From: Erysipelatoclostridium sp. An173
Lineage (GTDB): Bacteria > Bacillota_I > Bacilli_A > Erysipelotrichales > Coprobacillaceae
Direction of reading: 5' to 3'
DNA: 64,000 nt
NCBI RefSeq assembly: GCF_002160495.1
Contig: NZ_NFKR01000003.1
Coordinates: 62,001-126,000, forward strand
Position 1 is the first letter of the stretch. Every line of letters starts with the position of its first letter. A program made the translations under genes and the position numbers. The notes beneath the pieces are model-generated. The model was given only the letters and a program-made list of their open reading frames with translations, was not told where the DNA came from and did no database searches. Positions 39,963 through 49,403 of the stretch are shown here, one piece after another.

Positions 39963-40961
39963 ATGAAAACAGTAAAATTAGGAAACACAGATATAGAAAT
40001 TAGTCCAGTTGGTCTAGGGTGTATGGAATTTACCCACGCTTATGGCAAACCGATTGAAAAGCAGGAAGCAGTTAAAATAATTCTTAAGGCATATGATTTA
40101 GGATATACTTTTTTTGATACAGCTCAAAGATATACTGGAGTATATCCTGATGGAACAATTGCTTATAATGAAGAAGTTGTTGGCGAAGCTTTGAAAGATA
40201 TTCGTCATAAAGTAGTTATCGCTACTAAATGTGGAATTACAATGATTGATGGTAAAAGAACTTTAGATGCAAGACCTGAAACAATTAAAAAAACATTGAA
40301 TGAAAGTTTAAAAAGATTACAAACTGACTATGTAGATTTATATTATTTACATAGTATTGATCCTAATACACAAATTGAAACTGTCGCTAAAACAATGAAA
40401 GAATTATATTTAGAAGGAAAAATTAAAGCATGGGGAATTTCACAAGTGGATGAAGAAACGCTAAGAAGAGCACATAAAGTTTTTCCAGTTAGCGCAATTC
40501 AAAATAGATATTCAATGATGGCAAGAGATGAAGAAAAGATTTTTGATACTTGTAAAGAACTAGGAGTTACATTTGTAGCGTTTTCACCAATGGCGAATGG
40601 CTTTTTAACAGGCACTTATCATGGTGAAAAAATAAAAGAGGATCAAAGTGATTTTAGAAATTTAATGCCTCAATTTACTAAAGATGGCTATGAAGAATCT
40701 AAAGAACTATTATCATATCTTCAACAACTTGCAGATGAAAAACATGCTACAATGGGATAAATTTCTTTAGCATGGATGGAAAATAAAGACATAGATATTG
40801 TCCCAATTCCAGGAAGTAGAAAATTAGAACGACTAAAAGAAAATTTTGATAGTTGTAAAATAGAGCTTACTAAAGATGAAGTTAATAAAATTGATGATGT
40901 ATTAAATAAGATGAAAATAGGACCAGTGTATTTAGGAGCAAAAAATAAATCTAAAAAGTAA
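39963..40961 (+). pseudogene. Aldo/keto reductase with one in-frame stop
   Basis: Reads as a YhdN/AKR13-like enzyme: IEISPVGLGCMEFTHAYG, TFFDTAQRYTG (Asp, Tyr), IATKCGI (Lys), DLYYLHSIDPN (His), IQNRYSMMARD and FSPMANGFLTG. After KHATMG a TAA stands at 40758-40760, where homologues have Gln (ATxxQISLAW); the same frame continues ISLAWMENKDIDIVPIPGSR and ends KNKSKK. A CAA-to-TAA change explains it. Read through, the protein is 332 residues, normal for the family. The active-site residues lie before the stop but the NADPH phosphate-binding segment (IPGSRK) lies after it. Confidence 0.85.
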
Positions 40962-40970
40962 TCTATTATT

Positions 40971-40993
40971 AAAAGCCTCAATGTGAGGCTTTT
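40971..40993. terminator. Bidirectional terminator
   Basis: AAAAGCCTCA (40971-40980), loop ATG, TGAGGCTTTT (40984-40993); serves the aldo/keto reductase on plus and the LysR remnant on minus. Confidence 0.8.
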
Positions 40994-41511
40994 ATAAACT
41001 TAACAAATTTTCTTCAATGATATGTCGATATTGATTTAATAAAGTATTATTCTTATCATTTTGTCTGCGTATTTCATAAATCTTCATTTTTAATTCAGGA
41101 GTAGGAATACCAACTATATGTAATTACCTCTTTTCTTTATTGCTCATTGGAATTCCAATTGAAAAAGCATCAGTTTCACTAACAATCTTACTACGCAAAG
41201 AATGGTGATCAACTTCGATAGTTTTATGTGGATTAATATATTTTTGATAAGTGTCATAAGCGCCAGGTCTTTGGTTAATAAAATTAATAAATGGATAATT
41301 CCAAAGTCTTTCCTTAGAAAAATCATTTAGAATAGGATGATTTTCTCGAACATTAATTTGACAAACAGATTCCTTTAAACAATAGATTATTAAATTATGA
41401 GATAATGCAAAATCTTTAACTTGTTTTTCCATTGATGTAGGAATAATAAAATAAGCTACATCGATGATTTGCTGATATGTCTTTTCTAAAGCATCTTCTA
41501 CAGCACAAAAT
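40992..41511 (-). pseudogene. Second LysR-family remnant (C-terminal domain only)
   Basis: The minus frame reads CAVEDALEKTYQQIIDVA, then MEKQVKDFALSHN, LWNYPFINFIN, DHHSLRSKIVSETDAFSIG, a LysR effector-binding domain. A TAA at 41126-41124 interrupts after KEKR, and the same frame continues LHIVGIPTPELKMKIY to TAA at 40992. The N-terminal half, including the HTH, is missing: at about 41503-41511 the sequence changes into a MATE transporter fragment on the other strand. Confidence 0.7.
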
Positions 41512-41922
41512 TATAGTAATAATTCATATAATCGTATTAAAAAAGGAGCTAAAGATACTTTAAAGATTACAGTTTTATTAAGTTTAATAGTCGCTGTATT
41601 AGCACACTTTTTTAGTAGTGAATTTATGACTTTATTCGTAAATAAAAATGAACTACATATTATTTCTTTAGGAGTTCAATATATTTCTTTTACATCGTTT
41701 TGTTATTTTATTTTAGGTATAAACTTTATTGTTCGTTTTGTTTTAACCGGGGTTGGTGAATCATCAGTACCTCTTGGAGTTGGAATTCTTGAAATAATTG
41801 TTCGTTGTTTAGGAACATATTTTTTAGTTTATCCATTAGGTTTTCAAGGAATGATTTATATTAATCCATTATGTTGGGGAACTTCAATTCTATTAGTTGT
41901 TTGTCTTTATCCATATCTTTAA
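41503..41922 (+). pseudogene. MATE efflux protein remnant (C-terminal third)
   Basis: Open frame from about 41503: AQNYSNNSYNRIKKGAKDTL, then MTLFVNKNELHIISLG, FILGINFIVRFVLTGVGES and a last helix ending YPYL. This fits the second half of the C-terminal bundle of a MATE (NorM/DinF) exporter, usually 440-460 residues. No start codon or RBS; its 5' end is fused to the LysR remnant, so a deletion joined two genes of opposite direction. Confidence 0.7.
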
Positions 41923-42135
41923 AAAAAAGCATTTAAAAATTATAATGTAAAAACACTATAGTTATTAATAATTAATCTATATTTCAGGGTTTAATCTAAT
42001 CTTATTAAAGACAGTTTTAAATCCTTTTTTTATTAGAAAATAGTTAGTATAATTGAAATATATTGATAATCGAGAATGTAGTTAGATTGTTTATGTAATA
42101 TTATCGTGGTAGAATAAAAAAAGTAGGTGAAAAGG
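41923..42135. other. Intergenic region before the sensory operon
   Basis: AT-rich, no ORF. TATTAT-like hexamers occur near 42100 (TAATATTAT), so the promoter of the 42136-46348 operon lies here. The TGACA repeats seen at 46372-46433 are absent, arguing against strong autoregulation by that operon's response regulator. Confidence 0.4.
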
Positions 42136-43089
42136 ATGAAAAAAATTAATCGTAAATCAGTATACATTGTCATTATTTTAATAGTTGCTTTAATTACAAC
42201 ATTGATTTATAAGGAATATCAGTCACCATCAACCCAAAATCGAGTTTTTGGAGTAACGTATATGACAATGAATAACCCTTTTTATGAAGTTATTAATAAT
42301 GAATTAATAAAGGTTATTGAACAACATGAAGATCAACTTTTAGTTCGTAATCCGGCTTTAGATGTTGATAAACAAATTGAACAAATTTATTCATTCATTG
42401 ATAGGCAAGTTGATGGCATTTTTATAAATCCTATTGATTCACAAAAAATCACGCCCGCATTAAAAGCGGCACATGAAGCAGGAATACCTGTTATTATAGT
42501 AGATGCTCCTGTTGAAAATCCGCGGTTAGTAGATAGTACAATAGTTTCTGATAATTATGATGCAGGCGTACAATGTGCACGTGATATGATGAAAAAAATG
42601 GATTCGGCACAAATTATGTTATTAAAGCATACAAATGTCAAATCTGCCAAAGATCGTATTGACGGTTTTTTAGATACAATTAGTGGAAATTCACAATATC
42701 AGGTTATTGATGAAGGAGAATGTGAGGGACAATTAGAATTAGCAATGCCTTTGATGGAAGAAATGCTAGATAAAAATAGCAATGTTGATGTTGTAATGGC
42801 TTTGAATGATCCTAGTGCATTGGGGGCATTAGCAGCTTTAGAATCACGCCATATTAATGATGTTATAGTTTATGGTATAGATGGGACACCAGATTTAAAG
42901 TCGTTGATTAATAGCAATGAAATGGTAGCAGGGACTGTTGCACAATCACCAATTTCAATTGGAAATATCGCTGGCAAAAAGATGTACGAATTATTGTCAG
43001 GCAAAGATATTGAAGAAGAAATTATTATTCCAGTAAATTTAATTAATAAGGAAAATATTTCCTTTTATGATGAAACGGGGTGGCAATAA
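42136..43089 (+). CDS. Membrane-anchored sugar-binding protein (Peripla_BP_4/RbsB-like)
   Basis: 317 residues from the ATG at 42136; a GTG three codons earlier is part of the TAGGTG site. A single N-terminal helix (about 8-28) without lipobox Cys anchors it. The binding fold shows VFGVTYMTMNNPFYEVINNE, QVDGIFINPIDSQKI, AGIPVIIVDAPVE, STIVSDNYDAG, SAKDRIDGFLDTI and IYGIDGTP-like (here VYGIDGTPDL): the ribose/galactose-type two-lobe architecture. No ABC permease or ATPase is nearby. Its stop shares a base with the kinase ATG (TAATG). It is probably the ligand sensor for that kinase. Confidence 0.88.
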   Translation: MKKINRKSVYIVIILIVALITTLIYKEYQSPSTQNRVFGVTYMTMNNPFYEVINNELIKVIEQHEDQLLVRNPALDVDKQIEQIYSFIDRQVDGIFINPIDSQKITPALKAAHEAGIPVIIVDAPVENPRLVDSTIVSDNYDAGVQCARDMMKKMDSAQIMLLKHTNVKSAKDRIDGFLDTISGNSQYQVIDEGECEGQLELAMPLMEEMLDKNSNVDVVMALNDPSALGALAALESRHINDVIVYGIDGTPDLKSLINSNEMVAGTVAQSPISIGNIAGKKMYELLSGKDIEEEIIIPVNLINKENISFYDETGWQ

Positions 43090-44414
43090 TGATTTATTCA
43101 CATCGTAAAACATTGTCGATTTTACATAATACAATGTCAATATTAAATCTAATAATCGTTCTTTTTTACGGAACTGTGATTCTTTTAACCACTCGTTATA
43201 TTATTTTATCACAATTATCAAGAGACTTTTTAGATAATATTGATTACATACCTCATCATCCTTTAAAAGTTTTTTTTGGTTCATTATTTCTTTATGGTAT
43301 TTTAATTTTTATTATGTATGGTCGTAATGAGAATGTTACCACTCATAAGTATATGAATATTTTTTATAGCATTATCGAGATAATAGTAAGTTTTGCATTA
43401 ATTTATAGTATATATATGGGATATAATGGAATTTTATTTTTAGTATTTTGTGATTGTATTTTTCATTTAAAAGATGGTAGATATTCTAAATGGTTCATGG
43501 TGATATTGGTTATTGTATATCTAATATCTAGTTATGATGTTTTTTCAGCAATGTTTCCAATGGTAAGTGTCAATGACTATTTTCAAGTCTATGGATCTAA
43601 TATTTCTGGTGTATTTATGATTGTCAAAGCATGTTTAGAAACAATTAATATAATTTTGTTTATTAGTTTCATGATTGTTTATCTTGCAGATGAAATTCAA
43701 GAAAATGAACATATTAGTGAAGAATTAAATATGATTAATCAAGTGAATAAAGAATTACAAAATTATGCTGCAATAACTGAAAAAATAGGTGAAAATAATG
43801 AAAGAAAACGTTTGGCAAGAGAAATACATGATACTTTAGGTCATGCATTAACGGGGATTGCTGCGGGAATAGATGCTTGTTTAGCAATGATTGAAATTAA
43901 TCCTCAAGCTACTAAGCAACAATTAGAGGTTATTTCTAAGGTTGTACGTCAGGGAATAAAAGATGTACGTAATTCATTAAATAAACTTCGTCCAGGAGCA
44001 TTAGAAGAGCATAGTTTTAAAGAAGCTATTGAGCGGATGATAGATGAGTTTTCTAGTGTAAGCGATTTAACGATTGAACTAAATTATCAATTAAATAATA
44101 TTGATTTTGAAAAAAATAAAGAGGATATCTTATTTCGTATCATTCAAGAATGTATCACTAATGCTTTAAGACATGGACATGCAACATTTGTCGGTATTGA
44201 TATTTATCAGGAGATGGATTTTTTATACCTAAAGATACAAGATAACGGGGCTGGGTGTAAAAATATTAAATATGGTTTTGGATTAACTCAAATGAAAGAA
44301 AGGGTAGCTATTATCAATGGTGAAATTTATTTTGCAGGTGATAATGGATTTTTAACAATTGTCAAAATACCAATACAAAGGGGAGAAAAATATGGTGAAA
44401 GTAGTAATAGCTGA
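43089..44414 (+). CDS. Histidine kinase, HisKA_3 (LiaS/DesK-type), multi-pass
   Basis: 441 residues from the ATG at 43089 with GGGGTGG upstream. About six hydrophobic segments fill residues 10-205, a short coiled region follows (NEHISEELNMINQVNKEL), then the HisKA_3 box RLAREIHDTLGHALTGI with His247 and a C-terminal ATPase domain with IIQECITNALRHGHA (N-box), DNGAGC (G1) and YGFGLTQMKERV (G2). It lacks a recognisable extracellular sensor domain, so the solute-binding proteins encoded on either side of the TCS genes are candidate input partners. It overlaps the regulator gene by 23 bases. Confidence 0.9.
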   Translation: MIYSHRKTLSILHNTMSILNLIIVLFYGTVILLTTRYIILSQLSRDFLDNIDYIPHHPLKVFFGSLFLYGILIFIMYGRNENVTTHKYMNIFYSIIEIIVSFALIYSIYMGYNGILFLVFCDCIFHLKDGRYSKWFMVILVIVYLISSYDVFSAMFPMVSVNDYFQVYGSNISGVFMIVKACLETINIILFISFMIVYLADEIQENEHISEELNMINQVNKELQNYAAITEKIGENNERKRLAREIHDTLGHALTGIAAGIDACLAMIEINPQATKQQLEVISKVVRQGIKDVRNSLNKLRPGALEEHSFKEAIERMIDEFSSVSDLTIELNYQLNNIDFEKNKEDILFRIIQECITNALRHGHATFVGIDIYQEMDFLYLKIQDNGAGCKNIKYGFGLTQMKERVAIINGEIYFAGDNGFLTIVKIPIQRGEKYGESSNS

Positions 44415-45066
44415 TGATCAAGAATTAATAAGAGAATCACTGAAAATAGTTTTAGGGACTCACGAAGATATTCAAGTAGTTGCCACTGCAGTGGATGGAT
44501 TTGAAGTATTAAAAATTTTAGAACGAGAAAAAGTAGATATTATTTTGATGGATATTAGAATGCCAGGTATGGATGGGGTATATTGTACTAAAGTTGTCAA
44601 AGAAAAATATCCTGAAACAAAAATTATTATTTTAACAACTTTTGATGATGATGATTTTGTTTTTAGCGCTTTAAAATACGGTGCTAGTGGTTATCTGTTG
44701 AAGGGAGTAGGAATGGATGAGTTATATCAAGCTATTTTAACAGTAAATAGTGGAGGAGCAATGATTAACCCGGATATTGCTACTAAAGTATTTAGTATGT
44801 TTTCAAAGATGTCGCAAAATAATTTAGCTATTCAAGTTGACGAAGAAGCTATTCAGGATATCAATCAACCTGAATGGCGAGTTATTCAGCAGGTTGCATT
44901 TGGTTTATCTAATAAAGAGATTGCTCAAAAACTCTTTTTATCAGAGGGAACAGTAAGAAATTATTTGAGTTCAATATTGTCAAAGTTAAATTTAAGAGAT
45001 CGTACTCAGTTAGCTATTTGGGCTGTTCAGACCGGATTAACAACGAGGGATTTAAATAATGAATAA
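44392..45066 (+). CDS. NarL/LuxR-type response regulator
   Basis: 224 residues from the ATG at 44392 (AAAGGGGAG upstream). Receiver: KVVIADDQELIRESL, VDIILMDIRMPGMDG with Asp54, ILTTFDDDDFV and YLLKGVG with the conserved Lys. Output: a GerE helix-turn-helix (about 155-215), VAFGLSNKEIAQKLFLSEGT and VRNYLSSILSKL. NarL-type regulators bind inverted repeats as dimers; a long inverted repeat with TGACAAT arms in the PTS promoter downstream is the likely target. It overlaps the next gene by eight bases. Confidence 0.92.
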   Translation: MVKVVIADDQELIRESLKIVLGTHEDIQVVATAVDGFEVLKILEREKVDIILMDIRMPGMDGVYCTKVVKEKYPETKIIILTTFDDDDFVFSALKYGASGYLLKGVGMDELYQAILTVNSGGAMINPDIATKVFSMFSKMSQNNLAIQVDEEAIQDINQPEWRVIQQVAFGLSNKEIAQKLFLSEGTVRNYLSSILSKLNLRDRTQLAIWAVQTGLTTRDLNNE

Positions 45067-46348
45067 GAAAAAAATTATTTGTATTTTATTAGCTGTAGTA
45101 TGTGTTTTATTAATTATTTGGCAACCTCAAAAAATAACATTAAAGATTGGTATTTTTGCAGGAAGTAATTGGAATGTGCCTAATGGTGATTGTTATCAAA
45201 TTATTGATCAGGTTATTGAGAGATTTGAAAAAAAATATCCAATGGTTAATGTTGAATATGAAAGCGGAATTATAAAAGATGATTATTCACAATGGCTATC
45301 TTCGCAATATCTTAAAGGGGAAGAACCAGATGTATTTATGATATTAAGTGAAGATTTCAATACTTTAAGTGCTCTGGGAGCTTTAAAGGATTTGGATTAT
45401 TTAATCCAGCAGGATACACAATTTAATAAAGATGATTATTATGAAAGTGCTTTGGATACGGGAAAATATCATGGTGATCAGTATGCATTACCATACGAAA
45501 GTAATCCGACATTAATGTTCGTCAATAAAACGTTGCTAAAAAATGAAAATATAGAGATTCCCGATAATAACTGGACATTAGATGATTTTTATGAAATTTG
45601 TAAACAGATTACAAAGGATACTAATAACGATGGACAAATTGATCAGTATGGTTGTTATAATTATGATTGGCTAGATTCAATTTATAGTCATGAAATTAAT
45701 TTATTTGATGATGATGGAGATGAGTGTTATTTAAGCCAGGAATCTGTAAAGAGTGCTTTATCTTTTGCACAAAGATTAACGGAACTAAATCAAGGTTACA
45801 CAGTTACCTCTCAGGATTTTGATACTGGTAAAGTTGCATTTGCACCAATGACTTTTGCAGAATATCGAACTTACAAACCTTATCCATATAAAGTAAAAAA
45901 ATATTCACAGTTTGAATGGGATTGTGTTAAAATGCCAGGGATAACTCAAAAAACTGGAAGTGAAGTGTCATCTTTATTAATGGGAATTTCTTCACGTACC
46001 TCTTATGAAAAAAAAGCCTGGGAATTTTTAAAAATGTTAACGTATGATCAAGAATCTCAAGAAAATTTATTCCGTTATTCGCAAGGAATATCATCTTTAA
46101 AAACTGTTATCCAATCTTCAAAAGCTTTAAATATGTTGAGTGATGAAGAATTAGGAGATACACAAGTTGATTTAAGTTTATTAAATGAGGTTATGCAAAA
46201 TACAATAAGTCAAAATCAATTTAGAAAATATAATTCGGCATTAAGTATGATGGATACTCAAATTCAAAACATTATGAGAAATTGGCAAGATTTAGATTTA
46301 TCATTAATGTCTTTACAAAATGAAGTTAATGAATTTTTAAGAGAATAG
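45059..46348 (+). CDS. Extracellular solute-binding protein, family 1, membrane-anchored
   Basis: 429 residues with one N-terminal helix (about 5-22, no lipobox Cys) and an SBP_bac_1 fold: KIGIFAGSNWNVPNG, PMVNVEYESGIIKDDYS, LKGEEPDVFMILSEDF, YALPYESNPTLMFVNKTLL, then a tail with a short Gln/Asn-rich helix. Similar proteins feed oligosaccharide ABC importers, but none is encoded here. Overlap with the regulator gene ties it to the two-component system; it may be a second ligand sensor or a co-receptor. Its 3' end forms part of the terminator. Confidence 0.87.
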   Translation: MNKKKIICILLAVVCVLLIIWQPQKITLKIGIFAGSNWNVPNGDCYQIIDQVIERFEKKYPMVNVEYESGIIKDDYSQWLSSQYLKGEEPDVFMILSEDFNTLSALGALKDLDYLIQQDTQFNKDDYYESALDTGKYHGDQYALPYESNPTLMFVNKTLLKNENIEIPDNNWTLDDFYEICKQITKDTNNDGQIDQYGCYNYDWLDSIYSHEINLFDDDGDECYLSQESVKSALSFAQRLTELNQGYTVTSQDFDTGKVAFAPMTFAEYRTYKPYPYKVKKYSQFEWDCVKMPGITQKTGSEVSSLLMGISSRTSYEKKAWEFLKMLTYDQESQENLFRYSQGISSLKTVIQSSKALNMLSDEELGDTQVDLSLLNEVMQNTISQNQFRKYNSALSMMDTQIQNIMRNWQDLDLSLMSLQNEVNEFLRE

Positions 46349-46370
46349 TTTGTAACTATTCTCTTTTTTT
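46341..46370 (+). terminator. Terminator of the sensory operon
   Basis: GAGAATAGTT (46341-46350), loop TGT, AACTATTCTC (46354-46363), followed by seven T. It overlaps the stop codon of the solute-binding protein gene. Confidence 0.9.
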
Positions 46371-46371
46371 A

Positions 46372-46433
46372 TATGACAATTGTCATACTAATAATCTGTT
46401 GATTGTCATTAATAAAATGTGACAATAGACAGA
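46372..46433 (+). promoter_or_regulatory. Double operator in the mannose-type PTS promoter
   Basis: Site 1 is the 16-bp palindrome TATGACAATTGTCATA (46372-46387). Site 2 is an interrupted repeat: TCTGT (46395-46399), ATTGTCA (46402-46408), 11 bases, TGACAAT (46420-46426), ACAGA (46429-46433), symmetrical apart from one two-base step. Both share the half-site TGACAAT. They lie 58-119 bases before the first PTS gene and right after the terminator of the two-component operon, the expected place for its LuxR-type regulator to bind. Confidence 0.65.
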
Positions 46434-46490
46434 TGGAATGAATGAGTTTTATTGATAGAATTTAAGTGTCGAAAGAGGAGGGAATAAAAA

Positions 46491-46913
46491 ATGAGATATG
46501 TAGTTATGGTCAGTCATGGTCAATTTGCAAATGGATTAAAAGATGCGCTTATGATGTTGGCAGGACAACGTGAAGATGTTATAGCTTCAGGTTTAGAAAA
46601 CGGAAAAAGTGCTGATGAATTTGCACAAGATTTTGAAAAGACTATTGATTTTATCAATCAAGATGATGAAATCATTTTGCTTGGTGATTTAATAGGGGGT
46701 TCACCACTTACTACAGCAATGAATGTTATTCATGAAAAAAATATGGATGAACATTGCATCATTATTGGTGGTATGAATTTGCCATTAGCATTAACAACTG
46801 TTCTTATGAAAGACACATTAGATAAAGAAACATTTTTACAACAAGTTTTGCATGAGGGACAAACAGCTTTAAAAGAATTCAAAATTGAAAATGATGAAGA
46901 CGATGATATTTAA
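46491..46913 (+). CDS. Mannose-family PTS EIIA
   Basis: 140 residues. MRYVVMVSHGQFANGLKDAL carries the phosphorylated His9, followed by a DDEIILLGDLIGGSPLTTAM loop with the conserved Asp, and a Gly-Gly-Met-Asn segment. It takes phosphate from HPr for the EIIB below. RBS GAGGAGG. First gene of the transport operon and located immediately after the operator pair. Confidence 0.94.
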   Translation: MRYVVMVSHGQFANGLKDALMMLAGQREDVIASGLENGKSADEFAQDFEKTIDFINQDDEIILLGDLIGGSPLTTAMNVIHEKNMDEHCIIIGGMNLPLALTTVLMKDTLDKETFLQQVLHEGQTALKEFKIENDEDDDI

Positions 46914-46927
46914 AGGAGGAAAAAATT

Positions 46928-47419
46928 ATGTCAGTTTCATTTATTCGTATTGATGATCGGATGATTCATGGTCAAACATGTACACGTTGGGCTCGTGAAT
47001 ATCCTTGTGATGGGTTAATTGCTGTTAACGATAAGGCAGCAAAAAATGATGTTCTTAAGGCCGCTTATAAAGCAGCAAGTGGAAAAAAGACATTTGTATG
47101 GACATTAGCTGATTTTGAAAAAAAGAGTCAGAAAGTATTAGATAGTGATACACGTTATTTCTTAATCACTAAAAATCCAATTGATATGTGTAAAATTTTA
47201 GTAGATCAAAATTTTAAATGTGGTATTGATACAGTTATTGTTGGACCATGCAATGATAGAGAAGGTGCAGTTAAATTGGGAAATAATCAATCAATTACTC
47301 AAGAAGAGGCAGATGCATTTGAAAAAATAGCAAAAGCTGGCTATAAAATCAAATTCGCTTTATTACCTGATGTATCAATAGGAACATGGGATGATTTTAA
47401 AGGAAAATTTGGTTATTAA
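46928..47419 (+). CDS. Mannose-family PTS EIIB
   Basis: 163 residues. FIRIDDRMIHGQTCTRWARE contains the phosphorylated His14; the rest (VNDKAAKNDVLKAAYKAA, VGPCNDREGAVKLGNNQSI) follows the family. Met and Cys-Thr replace the usual RLIHGQV residues around the active site, which suggests a sugar other than plain mannose or fructose. RBS AAAGGAGG. Confidence 0.93.
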   Translation: MSVSFIRIDDRMIHGQTCTRWAREYPCDGLIAVNDKAAKNDVLKAAYKAASGKKTFVWTLADFEKKSQKVLDSDTRYFLITKNPIDMCKILVDQNFKCGIDTVIVGPCNDREGAVKLGNNQSITQEEADAFEKIAKAGYKIKFALLPDVSIGTWDDFKGKFGY

Positions 47420-47446: not shown

Positions 47447-48286
47447 ATGGAAATTAGTTGGATTCAAGCGGCTTTGCTAGGATTATTCGCTTGTTTATCA
47501 AGTATGCCTGGTTTAGGAGGAACGTCAATCGGTAACTATACATTAGGACGACCATTAATTGGTGGTTTAGTGTGTGGTATTATTTTAGGGGATATTTATA
47601 CTGGTATTTTAGTCGGGGTTGCAATGCAAGTTGTATATATTGCATTGGTTACACCTGGTGGAACAGTTTCAGCAGATGTTCGTGCAGTAAGTTATATTGG
47701 TATTCCATTAGCAATGATTGCATTGAAGAGCTATGGTTTAGATGCTGGTAGTGCTGATGGGCAAGCAATGGCTACATCTTTTGGTACAATGGTTGGAACT
47801 TTAGGAACAGTTTTATTCTATGGTACTGCAACAATCAATCTTGTTTGGCAACATATGGGATGGAAAGCTGTTGAAAACGGAAACTTTAAAAAATTATATT
47901 TAGTTAATATGGGATTACCTTGGATCTCACACATTATTTGTTCTTTTATCCCAACATTAATCATGTGTAAAATGGGGGCACCAATGGTAGATTTAATTAA
48001 GAGTTATTTACCAATGGATGGAATTGCAATGATGACTTTATTTACAGTTGGTTCTTTACTTCCATGTGTCGGAATTGCAATTTTATTAAAACAAATTGTA
48101 ACTAAAGCTATTGATTTTATTCCATTTTTCTTTGGATTTACTCTAGCTGCTGCTTTAGGTATCAATCTTGTTTCTGCAACAATTATTGCTGGAATGTTTG
48201 CGTTAATTAATTACAGAATTAAAATGTTGACACTAAACAAAACGGTAGCAGTATCAGATGATGAAGATGATGAGGAGGATATTTAA
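47447..48286 (+). CDS. Mannose-family PTS EIIC
   Basis: 279 residues, polytopic. GLFACLSSMPGLGGTSIGNY, RPLIGGLVCGIILGDIYTG and VAMQVVYIALVTPGG are typical of ManY/AgaC-type subunits; an acidic tail (DDEDDEEDI) ends it. With EIID it forms the membrane channel. RBS AAAGGAG. Its tail encodes the GAGGAGG site for EIID. Confidence 0.92.
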   Translation: MEISWIQAALLGLFACLSSMPGLGGTSIGNYTLGRPLIGGLVCGIILGDIYTGILVGVAMQVVYIALVTPGGTVSADVRAVSYIGIPLAMIALKSYGLDAGSADGQAMATSFGTMVGTLGTVLFYGTATINLVWQHMGWKAVENGNFKKLYLVNMGLPWISHIICSFIPTLIMCKMGAPMVDLIKSYLPMDGIAMMTLFTVGSLLPCVGIAILLKQIVTKAIDFIPFFFGFTLAAALGINLVSATIIAGMFALINYRIKMLTLNKTVAVSDDEDDEEDI

Positions 48287-48287
48287 A

Positions 48288-49121
48288 ATGGATAAAAAGT
48301 TAACAAAAAAGACTCTTACAAAGTCATTTCACAATTGGTATTATGGGAATTTAACATGTTTTTCTCAAGAACATATGCAAACATTTGGATATTTGTGTTC
48401 AATGCTACCTGTTGTTGAAGAATTATATAATAAAAAAGAAGATAAAGAAAAAGCAATGAAAACTTATACAGCTTTCTTTAATACCGAACCACAAATTGGA
48501 TCAGTTATTGTTGGGATGACAGCTGGACTAGAAGAAGCTCGTGCCAATGGGGAAGATGTTGACGATGAAACAATTAATGGGTTACGTGCTGGGTTAATGG
48601 GACCATTAGCAGGAATTGGAGATTCGCTAGTTGTTGGAACAGTTATACCTATTTTATTAGGGGTAGCTTTAGGAATGTCAAGCGGCGGATCACCATTAGG
48701 AGCGATATTCTATATTATTGTATGGAACTTATTTGCTTACTTTGGAATGAAATTCTTATATTTTAAAGGATACGAATTAGGTGGAAAAGCAGTTGATTTT
48801 TTAGTCGGACCACAAGGAGAAGCATTAAGAGAATCAATCACTATGTTAGGTGGTATTGTTATTGGTGCTGTAGCTGCTACATGGGTTACTGTTACTACTA
48901 ATTTTACATTAACAGCTCAAGGTGCTAAAGAACCATATTTAGAATTACAAAAAACATTAGACAGTGTTTATCCAGGATTTTTAACAGCTGCATTTATTAT
49001 GCTTTGCTGGTATTTATTAGCTAAAAAGAAAATGTCACCAATTAAAGTAATGTTATTATTGGTTGTTATTGCCTTTGTTGGTGTATTAATTGGATTCTTT
49101 AATCCAGGTTTACAATATTAA
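48288..49121 (+). CDS. Mannose-family PTS EIID
   Basis: 277 residues from the ATG at 48288, which has GAGGAGG (48272-48278) upstream; a start 30 bases earlier would overlap EIIC and lacks an RBS. LTKKTLTKSFHNWYYGNLTC replaces the usual W-x-W-Q-x-S/FN-YER-Q segment, with SFHNWYYGN equivalent to its second half; GLRAGLMGPLAGIGDSLVVG is the conserved loop. It completes the permease. Confidence 0.92.
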   Translation: MDKKLTKKTLTKSFHNWYYGNLTCFSQEHMQTFGYLCSMLPVVEELYNKKEDKEKAMKTYTAFFNTEPQIGSVIVGMTAGLEEARANGEDVDDETINGLRAGLMGPLAGIGDSLVVGTVIPILLGVALGMSSGGSPLGAIFYIIVWNLFAYFGMKFLYFKGYELGGKAVDFLVGPQGEALRESITMLGGIVIGAVAATWVTVTTNFTLTAQGAKEPYLELQKTLDSVYPGFLTAAFIMLCWYLLAKKKMSPIKVMLLLVVIAFVGVLIGFFNPGLQY

Positions 49122-49136
49122 AAAGGAGATGAAGAT

Positions 49137-49403
49137 ATGGATGCAAAACTTAAAAATGCATATATTGCAGAAGTACAATATCAAACAAAAATGTTAAACC
49201 ATTTAAAAAAATGGTTAAGAAACCTTATTATTTTTTCCTCAATATCCTTAGTTCTTGTTCTGTTTGGTGCATCCATTCATCCATTCATGCAAATACTGGG
49301 AGTTGTATTGATGATTGTTAGTATTCTTGCATGTGTTTTAGTTGGGCTTGGATATAAAAATGGGCGCAACAATATTTGTAAAATTATAGATAATATAAAA
49401 TAA
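49137..49403 (+). CDS. Small two-helix membrane protein in the PTS operon
   Basis: 88 residues: amphipathic N-terminal helix (KNAYIAEVQYQTKMLNHLKK), two hydrophobic segments (about 30-48 and 53-72) and a basic end. RBS AAAAGGAG. It lies 15 bases after EIID. It resembles no family I can name; it could be an accessory subunit comparable in place with ManO-like small proteins, but not in sequence. Confidence 0.7.
   Translation: MDAKLKNAYIAEVQYQTKMLNHLKKWLRNLIIFSSISLVLVLFGASIHPFMQILGVVLMIVSILACVLVGLGYKNGRNNICKIIDNIK

Follow-up and report, generated by a model that had tools for sequence, protein, structure and literature searches.

The region between the sensory operon and the PTS operon of this locus is, with a probability of about 0.87, a mannose-family PTS promoter with three tandem sites for LevR, the NarL-type response regulator encoded beside it, from which sugar-activated LevR would switch on uptake. 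Coordinates (Table 1) refer to the window, i.e. the whole stretch of 64,000 nucleotides of Erysipelatoclostridium sp. An173 DNA that was analysed.

In the proposed mechanism, an inducing sugar outside the cell would be sensed by two binding proteins, and a LevS-type kinase would then phosphorylate LevR. Dimers of phospho-LevR are predicted to fill site 1, a perfect TGACA-N2-TGTCA palindrome, before binding sites 2 and 3, which follow at steps of about two helical turns, with a cooperativity that would depend on phosphorylation. The site-3 dimer, centred near -42, would contact RNA polymerase at this promoter, whose -10 is of the extended type and whose -35 is poor. In this way, class II activation by phospho-LevR would turn on sugar uptake.

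Gene content of the locus

Pfam assigns to one sensory operon a Peripla_BP_4 protein, a HisKA_3 kinase, a NarL-type regulator and an SBP_bac_8 protein, and to the operon on its 3' side a mannose-family EIIA-EIIB-EIIC-EIID set, which is accompanied by a small membrane protein; which binding protein is Q and which is T was assigned by position. The LevQRST-PTS synteny, checked with tblastn, recurs in orthologous loci of Erysipelotrichales, Streptococcus, Lachnospiraceae and others. Two binding proteins, a kinase and a response regulator beside a mannose-family PTS operon also make up the LevQRST/levDEFG/fruA system of Streptococcus mutans, in which efficient activation of fruAB and the PTS operon depends on all four sensory components (PMC3043104); the organism is a different one, and no second strong target was found in the present genome. 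The repeats described below lie, as the earlier note had placed them, between the terminator of the sensory operon and the PTS start, and that terminator is real, with a 12-pair stem and a T-run (z = -5.3).

On the 5' side of the sensory operon, positions 40721-42000 hold apparent gene remnants in the form of short ORFs, one of which resembles the C-terminal end of a membrane exporter. At the other end of this operon, relatives (loci L114, L126, L218, L219, L221 and L008) carry differing extra genes between levT and site 1, including a HAD hydrolase, a pair with a P-loop ATPase, an apparent transposase-like gene and others (names from translations), so that the junction of levT and the operator resembles a hot spot for insertions. 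Contigs C3 and C11 of genome G004 both end in the same operator sequence and may represent two arrangements within one assembly.

Table 1. Positions of genes, regulatory sites and promoter elements in the window
Feature	Position	Strand	Basis
LevQ-like sugar-binding protein, Peripla_BP_4	42127..43089	+	Pfam, synteny
LevS-like histidine kinase, HisKA_3	43080..44414	+	Pfam, relatives
LevR-like NarL-type response regulator	44392..45066	+	Pfam; genome self-match only at E<=1e-10
LevT-like sugar-binding protein, SBP_bac_8	45059..46348	+	Pfam
Intrinsic terminator ending the sensory operon; overlaps the stop codon of levT	46339..46365	+	
Site 1, TGACA-AT-TGTCA, forming the core of the palindrome (16 bp) at 46372-46387	46374..46385	.	
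Site 2, TGTTG-AT-TGTCA, with a left half that is weak in the window but resembles TGACA in the family	46397..46408	.	
Site 3, TGACA-AT-AGACA, adjoining the -35 region; its second half is oriented as a direct repeat	46420..46431	.	
Expected -35, ATGGAA, a poor match to TTGACA	46433..46438	+	sequence
Extended -10, TGaTAGAAT; its hexamer (46456-46461) follows the start of site 3 by 36 bp	46453..46461	+	
Predicted transcription start, placed 7 nt downstream of the -10 hexamer	46468	+	deduced from -10
Ribosome-binding site AGGAGG of EIIA	46476..46481	+	sequence
PTS EIIA, mannose family	46491..46913	+	Pfam
PTS EIIB, sorbose/mannose family	46928..47419	+	Pfam
PTS EIIC	47447..48286	+	Pfam
PTS EIID	48258..49121	+	Pfam
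Small membrane protein at the levX position	49137..49403	+	weak DUF202 match below cut-off; syntenic relatives

Conservation of the palindrome and its co-occurrence with LevS

Both repeats of the earlier note are present where it had reported them: the 16-bp palindrome TATGACAATTGTCATA at 46372-46387, made of inverted heptamers with a 2-bp spacer (TATGACA-AT-TGTCATA), and the 39-bp interrupted repeat TCTGTTGATTGTCATTAATAAAATGTGACAATAGACAGA at 46395-46433, whose arms agree at 12 of 14 positions. Since the window holds 12 perfect 16-bp palindromes, and the TGACANNTGTCA core has 3 places in the genome against 4 for a reversed control pattern, palindromy alone is weak evidence. The genome's own TGACANNTGTCA count was accordingly dropped as evidence; of the two places other than the site in the window, one is close to the gene for a tail-like protein and one comes after a dnaE-like gene. 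A scan allowing two mismatches (6 places against 3 for the control) was uninformative. By itself the 16-bp palindrome is unremarkable; it is conservation that exceeds chance, and this is decisive.

In a sample of 72 non-redundant regions upstream of the EIIA genes of orthologous PTS operons, TGACA-N2-TGTCA (TGACAnnTGTCA) occurs in 59 and the exact core is absent from 13; 100 rounds of dinucleotide shuffling gave no occurrence, and other permutations of the half-site pentamer in the same arrangement are each found in at most one of the 72. The motif is thus not missing before orthologous PTS operons that keep the two-component system, and the half-site TGACA(AT) proposed from the single sequence is supported. 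Among spacings between half-sites in these regions, 2 dominates and the next peak, at 23, corresponds to the step between site 1 and the right half-site of site 2. The operator is also shared with relatives in genera that have the known system, as at the S. sanguinis levD-type promoter L158 and fruA-type promoter L202.

Model R2, a profile that uses sequence alone and was trained on 15 sequences from streptococci and clostridia, with Erysipelotrichales left out, was run on the whole genome and returned the site in the window as its sole strong match (E 3.6e-9; next match 0.007); neither R2 nor model R1 gave a second strong match in this genome. These figures make chance palindromes or relics of a mobile element an almost negligible explanation for the repeats. 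Perfect 16-bp palindromes are indeed common in the AT-rich window, and foreign genes have been inserted beside the site in several relatives, but the core stands in 59 of 72 orthologous regions against none in the shuffles, the match with R2 was obtained out of sample, and the inserted genes sit upstream of an array that is left intact and still attached to the PTS promoter.

Across the family, an R1 match at E<=1e-4 was found in 29 of the 33 genomes with LevS and in none of the 10 without it, with the caveat that the training set of R1 includes some of the genomes that it scores and that related genomes are not independent; one of the four LevS-bearing genomes without a strong match has a contig that ends at the site. 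A hypergeometric count puts this co-occurrence at about 5e-7, a figure that ignores both relatedness and the overlap of R1 training with LevS-positive genomes. Taken with the 59 of 72 upstream regions, it supports the claim that the repeats are the target of the neighbouring NarL-type regulator. The array is also found at a PTS operon that is not next to levQRST: in Streptococcus caballi it precedes a PTS operon (E 4.6e-13) on a different contig from the levQRST locus, which has no adjacent EIIA in the fetched contigs.

Weak array matches (E ~0.01) lie just upstream of levQ in three genomes of one genus (G018:C19:15084-15133, G035:C46:15438-15487 and G030:C44:75071-75120), hinting at autoregulation in that genus; in the window, the region upstream of levQ showed no site of the TGACA type.

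Three tandem sites and the promoter

The geometry of the array was derived from 39 loci, chosen because another TGACA follows site 1 at 43-46 bp and aligned on this third TGACA as position 0; its perfect conservation reflects that choice, whereas the -10 was used neither to choose nor to anchor the loci. Half-site scores peak at -23 and -16, defining site 2 (TGACA-N2-TGTCA, with a weaker left half), and at +7, defining site 3 (TGACA-N2-[T/A]GACA, the second half being a direct repeat), so that the array consists of three tandem 12-bp sites spaced about 21-23 bp apart. A TAnAAT-like -10 box begins at +36, that is 36 bp after the start of site 3, with its T conserved in 38 of the 39 loci and its A and final T in all 39; most of the loci match TATAAT at 5/6, while the mean match of the -35 to consensus is 2.6/6 across the family.

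This layout departs from the double operator first described, in that the family has three tandem 7-2-7-type sites. Nor does conservation support the concentric arms that the earlier note saw in its second site: the outer-left arm TCTGT is not conserved (mean 2.4/5), as opposed to the TGACA at -23 (mean 3.8/5 across the same 39 loci). Because of the conserved family geometry, the 39-bp element is best described as sites 2 and 3 adjoining each other; the suggestion that it takes two dimers therefore holds for their number, but not for their arrangement, as they would sit side by side.

In the window itself, the strong inner half-sites are the TGTCA of site 2 (46404-46408) and the TGACA of site 3 (from 46420), and the left half of site 2, TGTTG, is poor, so that three dimers, rather than two plus a half-site, are deduced from the family. 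LevR could instead recognize two units, the palindrome of site 1 and an everted pair formed by TGTCA at 46404 and TGACA at 46420, in line with the second site of the earlier note, an arrangement that we consider possible but unlikely. TGTCA-N11-TGACA is the best-matching pair in the window, 27 of the 72 upstream regions have it at exactly that spacing, and fructanase promoters (see below) carry just two sites. Against such an everted pair, conservation of site 2's left half follows the 7-2-7 register that is normal for sites of NarL-type regulators; this half is perfect in 14 of the 39 loci, including some whose right half is degenerate, and the outer-left arm is not maintained.

Relative to the predicted transcription start, the three sites are centred near -88, -65 and -42, and the best reading of these positions is an activator array whose last site would occupy a class II position. 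The proposed promoter was not called by a sigma-70 consensus scan, owing to its poor -35. That LevR might instead act here as a repressor, or that the array might chiefly limit read-through from the sensory operon, appears very unlikely: a protein bound at site 3, which adjoins the -35 region, could block polymerase, yet a poor -35 combined with a fixed -10 spacing is what class II activation would be expected to show, the sensory operon is already ended by its intrinsic terminator, and S. mutans LevR is an activator of levD and fruA (PMC3043104).

Near the predicted start, a GTGTC motif (46466-46470 in the window) is common to many Erysipelotrichales loci. Inspection by eye revealed cre-like sequences between the -35 and the -10 in relatives, which suggest catabolite control in those organisms, and none that was obvious in the window.

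Related regulators and other operons carrying the array

In S. mutans, the promoter regions of levD and fruA are both bound by purified LevR in vitro (PMC3043104), and expression of fruA in this species requires a dyad at -72 to -59 that has been suggested as the LevR target (PMC9241797). Weaker streptococcal matches precede genes for large secreted proteins, and the three that were checked are all GH32 enzymes (FruA-type fructanases). In the four GH32 fructanase promoters examined, a 14-bp dyad lies in every case at -72 to -59 from the rule-predicted start, thereby coinciding with the S. mutans fruA dyad in a comparison by position and not letter by letter. These promoters have only two sites, with 23 bp from the dyad to the next TGACA and again a TA-rich -10-like hexamer at +36; the left half of the dyad is degenerate in one of them. 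Three sites are found before the PTS operon here, whereas the papers on S. mutans mention one dyad, at fruA (PMC3043104, PMC9241797).

The palindrome itself is shared with other regulators, the motif ATGACA-N2-TGTCAT having been attributed to DesR as well as to pneumococcal RR11 (PMC11034029). At Pdes of Bacillus subtilis, direct as well as inverted repeats take part in binding (PMC7726353). The palindrome in the window matches the motif quoted for DesR (PMC11034029). DesKR senses the state of the membrane, controls a desaturase and has no sugar-binding proteins. For RR11 (TCS11), the predicted motif, for which its authors ask for biochemical validation, is ATGACATTTGTCAT-N7-AGTGACA, and the only specific target found was its own operon with an ABC transporter (PMC11034029); it has the same palindrome, and another TGACA 22 bp on, which corresponds to the position of site 2 here (21-23). 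The helix-turn-helix region of LevR and PDB entry 4zmr, which is named just 'Response regulator' and which we take to be RR11, both contain LSxGT[VI]RNY, and VraR/LiaR-type regulators differ.

Given these nearly identical motifs (PMC11034029), a DesR- or RR11-type protein might bind the region in place of LevR. This is very unlikely, considering that LevR matches nothing but itself in the genome at E<=1e-10, that strong array matches track LevS across the family, and that they are located at LevQRST-linked or fructanase operons.

In other lineages, matches precede ribose-type ABC transporter genes and a phosphofructokinase/PTS operon, with gene names mostly read from translations and those of L162 and L163 checked with Pfam. 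At these last two loci, near levQRST, a LevR-type array adjoins genes for a ribose-type sugar-binding protein and a D-lyxose isomerase, a hint that the sugar in Lachnospiraceae may be a different one. A tentative generalization, to which we give slightly less than even odds, is that LevR-type regulators across Firmicutes read a rigid three-site array (~21 + 23 bp) placed 36 bp from the -10, and that this cassette has moved between mannose-type PTS operons, fructose PTS operons with phosphofructokinase, ribose-type ABC transporters and fructanases. If true, it would reveal a modular wiring of sugar sensors and a general promoter code.

The site type was already known, and what appears to be new is the family-wide definition of its layout, a finding ordinary in kind and well supported by comparison; the literature searched, which leaves out most subscription journals, contained no description of the three-site layout or of its wide distribution in Firmicutes. 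How LevR, DesR and RR11, with nearly the same palindrome, would be insulated from each other where they coexist is a question that this similarity raises. In summary, the comparison would provide a precise architecture of operator and promoter for a sensing system known chiefly from work on oral streptococci, and would extend that system to gut Erysipelotrichales and Lachnospiraceae. It would also account for the fruA dyad of S. mutans, which would be the same element in an identical position, and yield a search model with which targets of such sugar sensors could be sought in gut bacteria.
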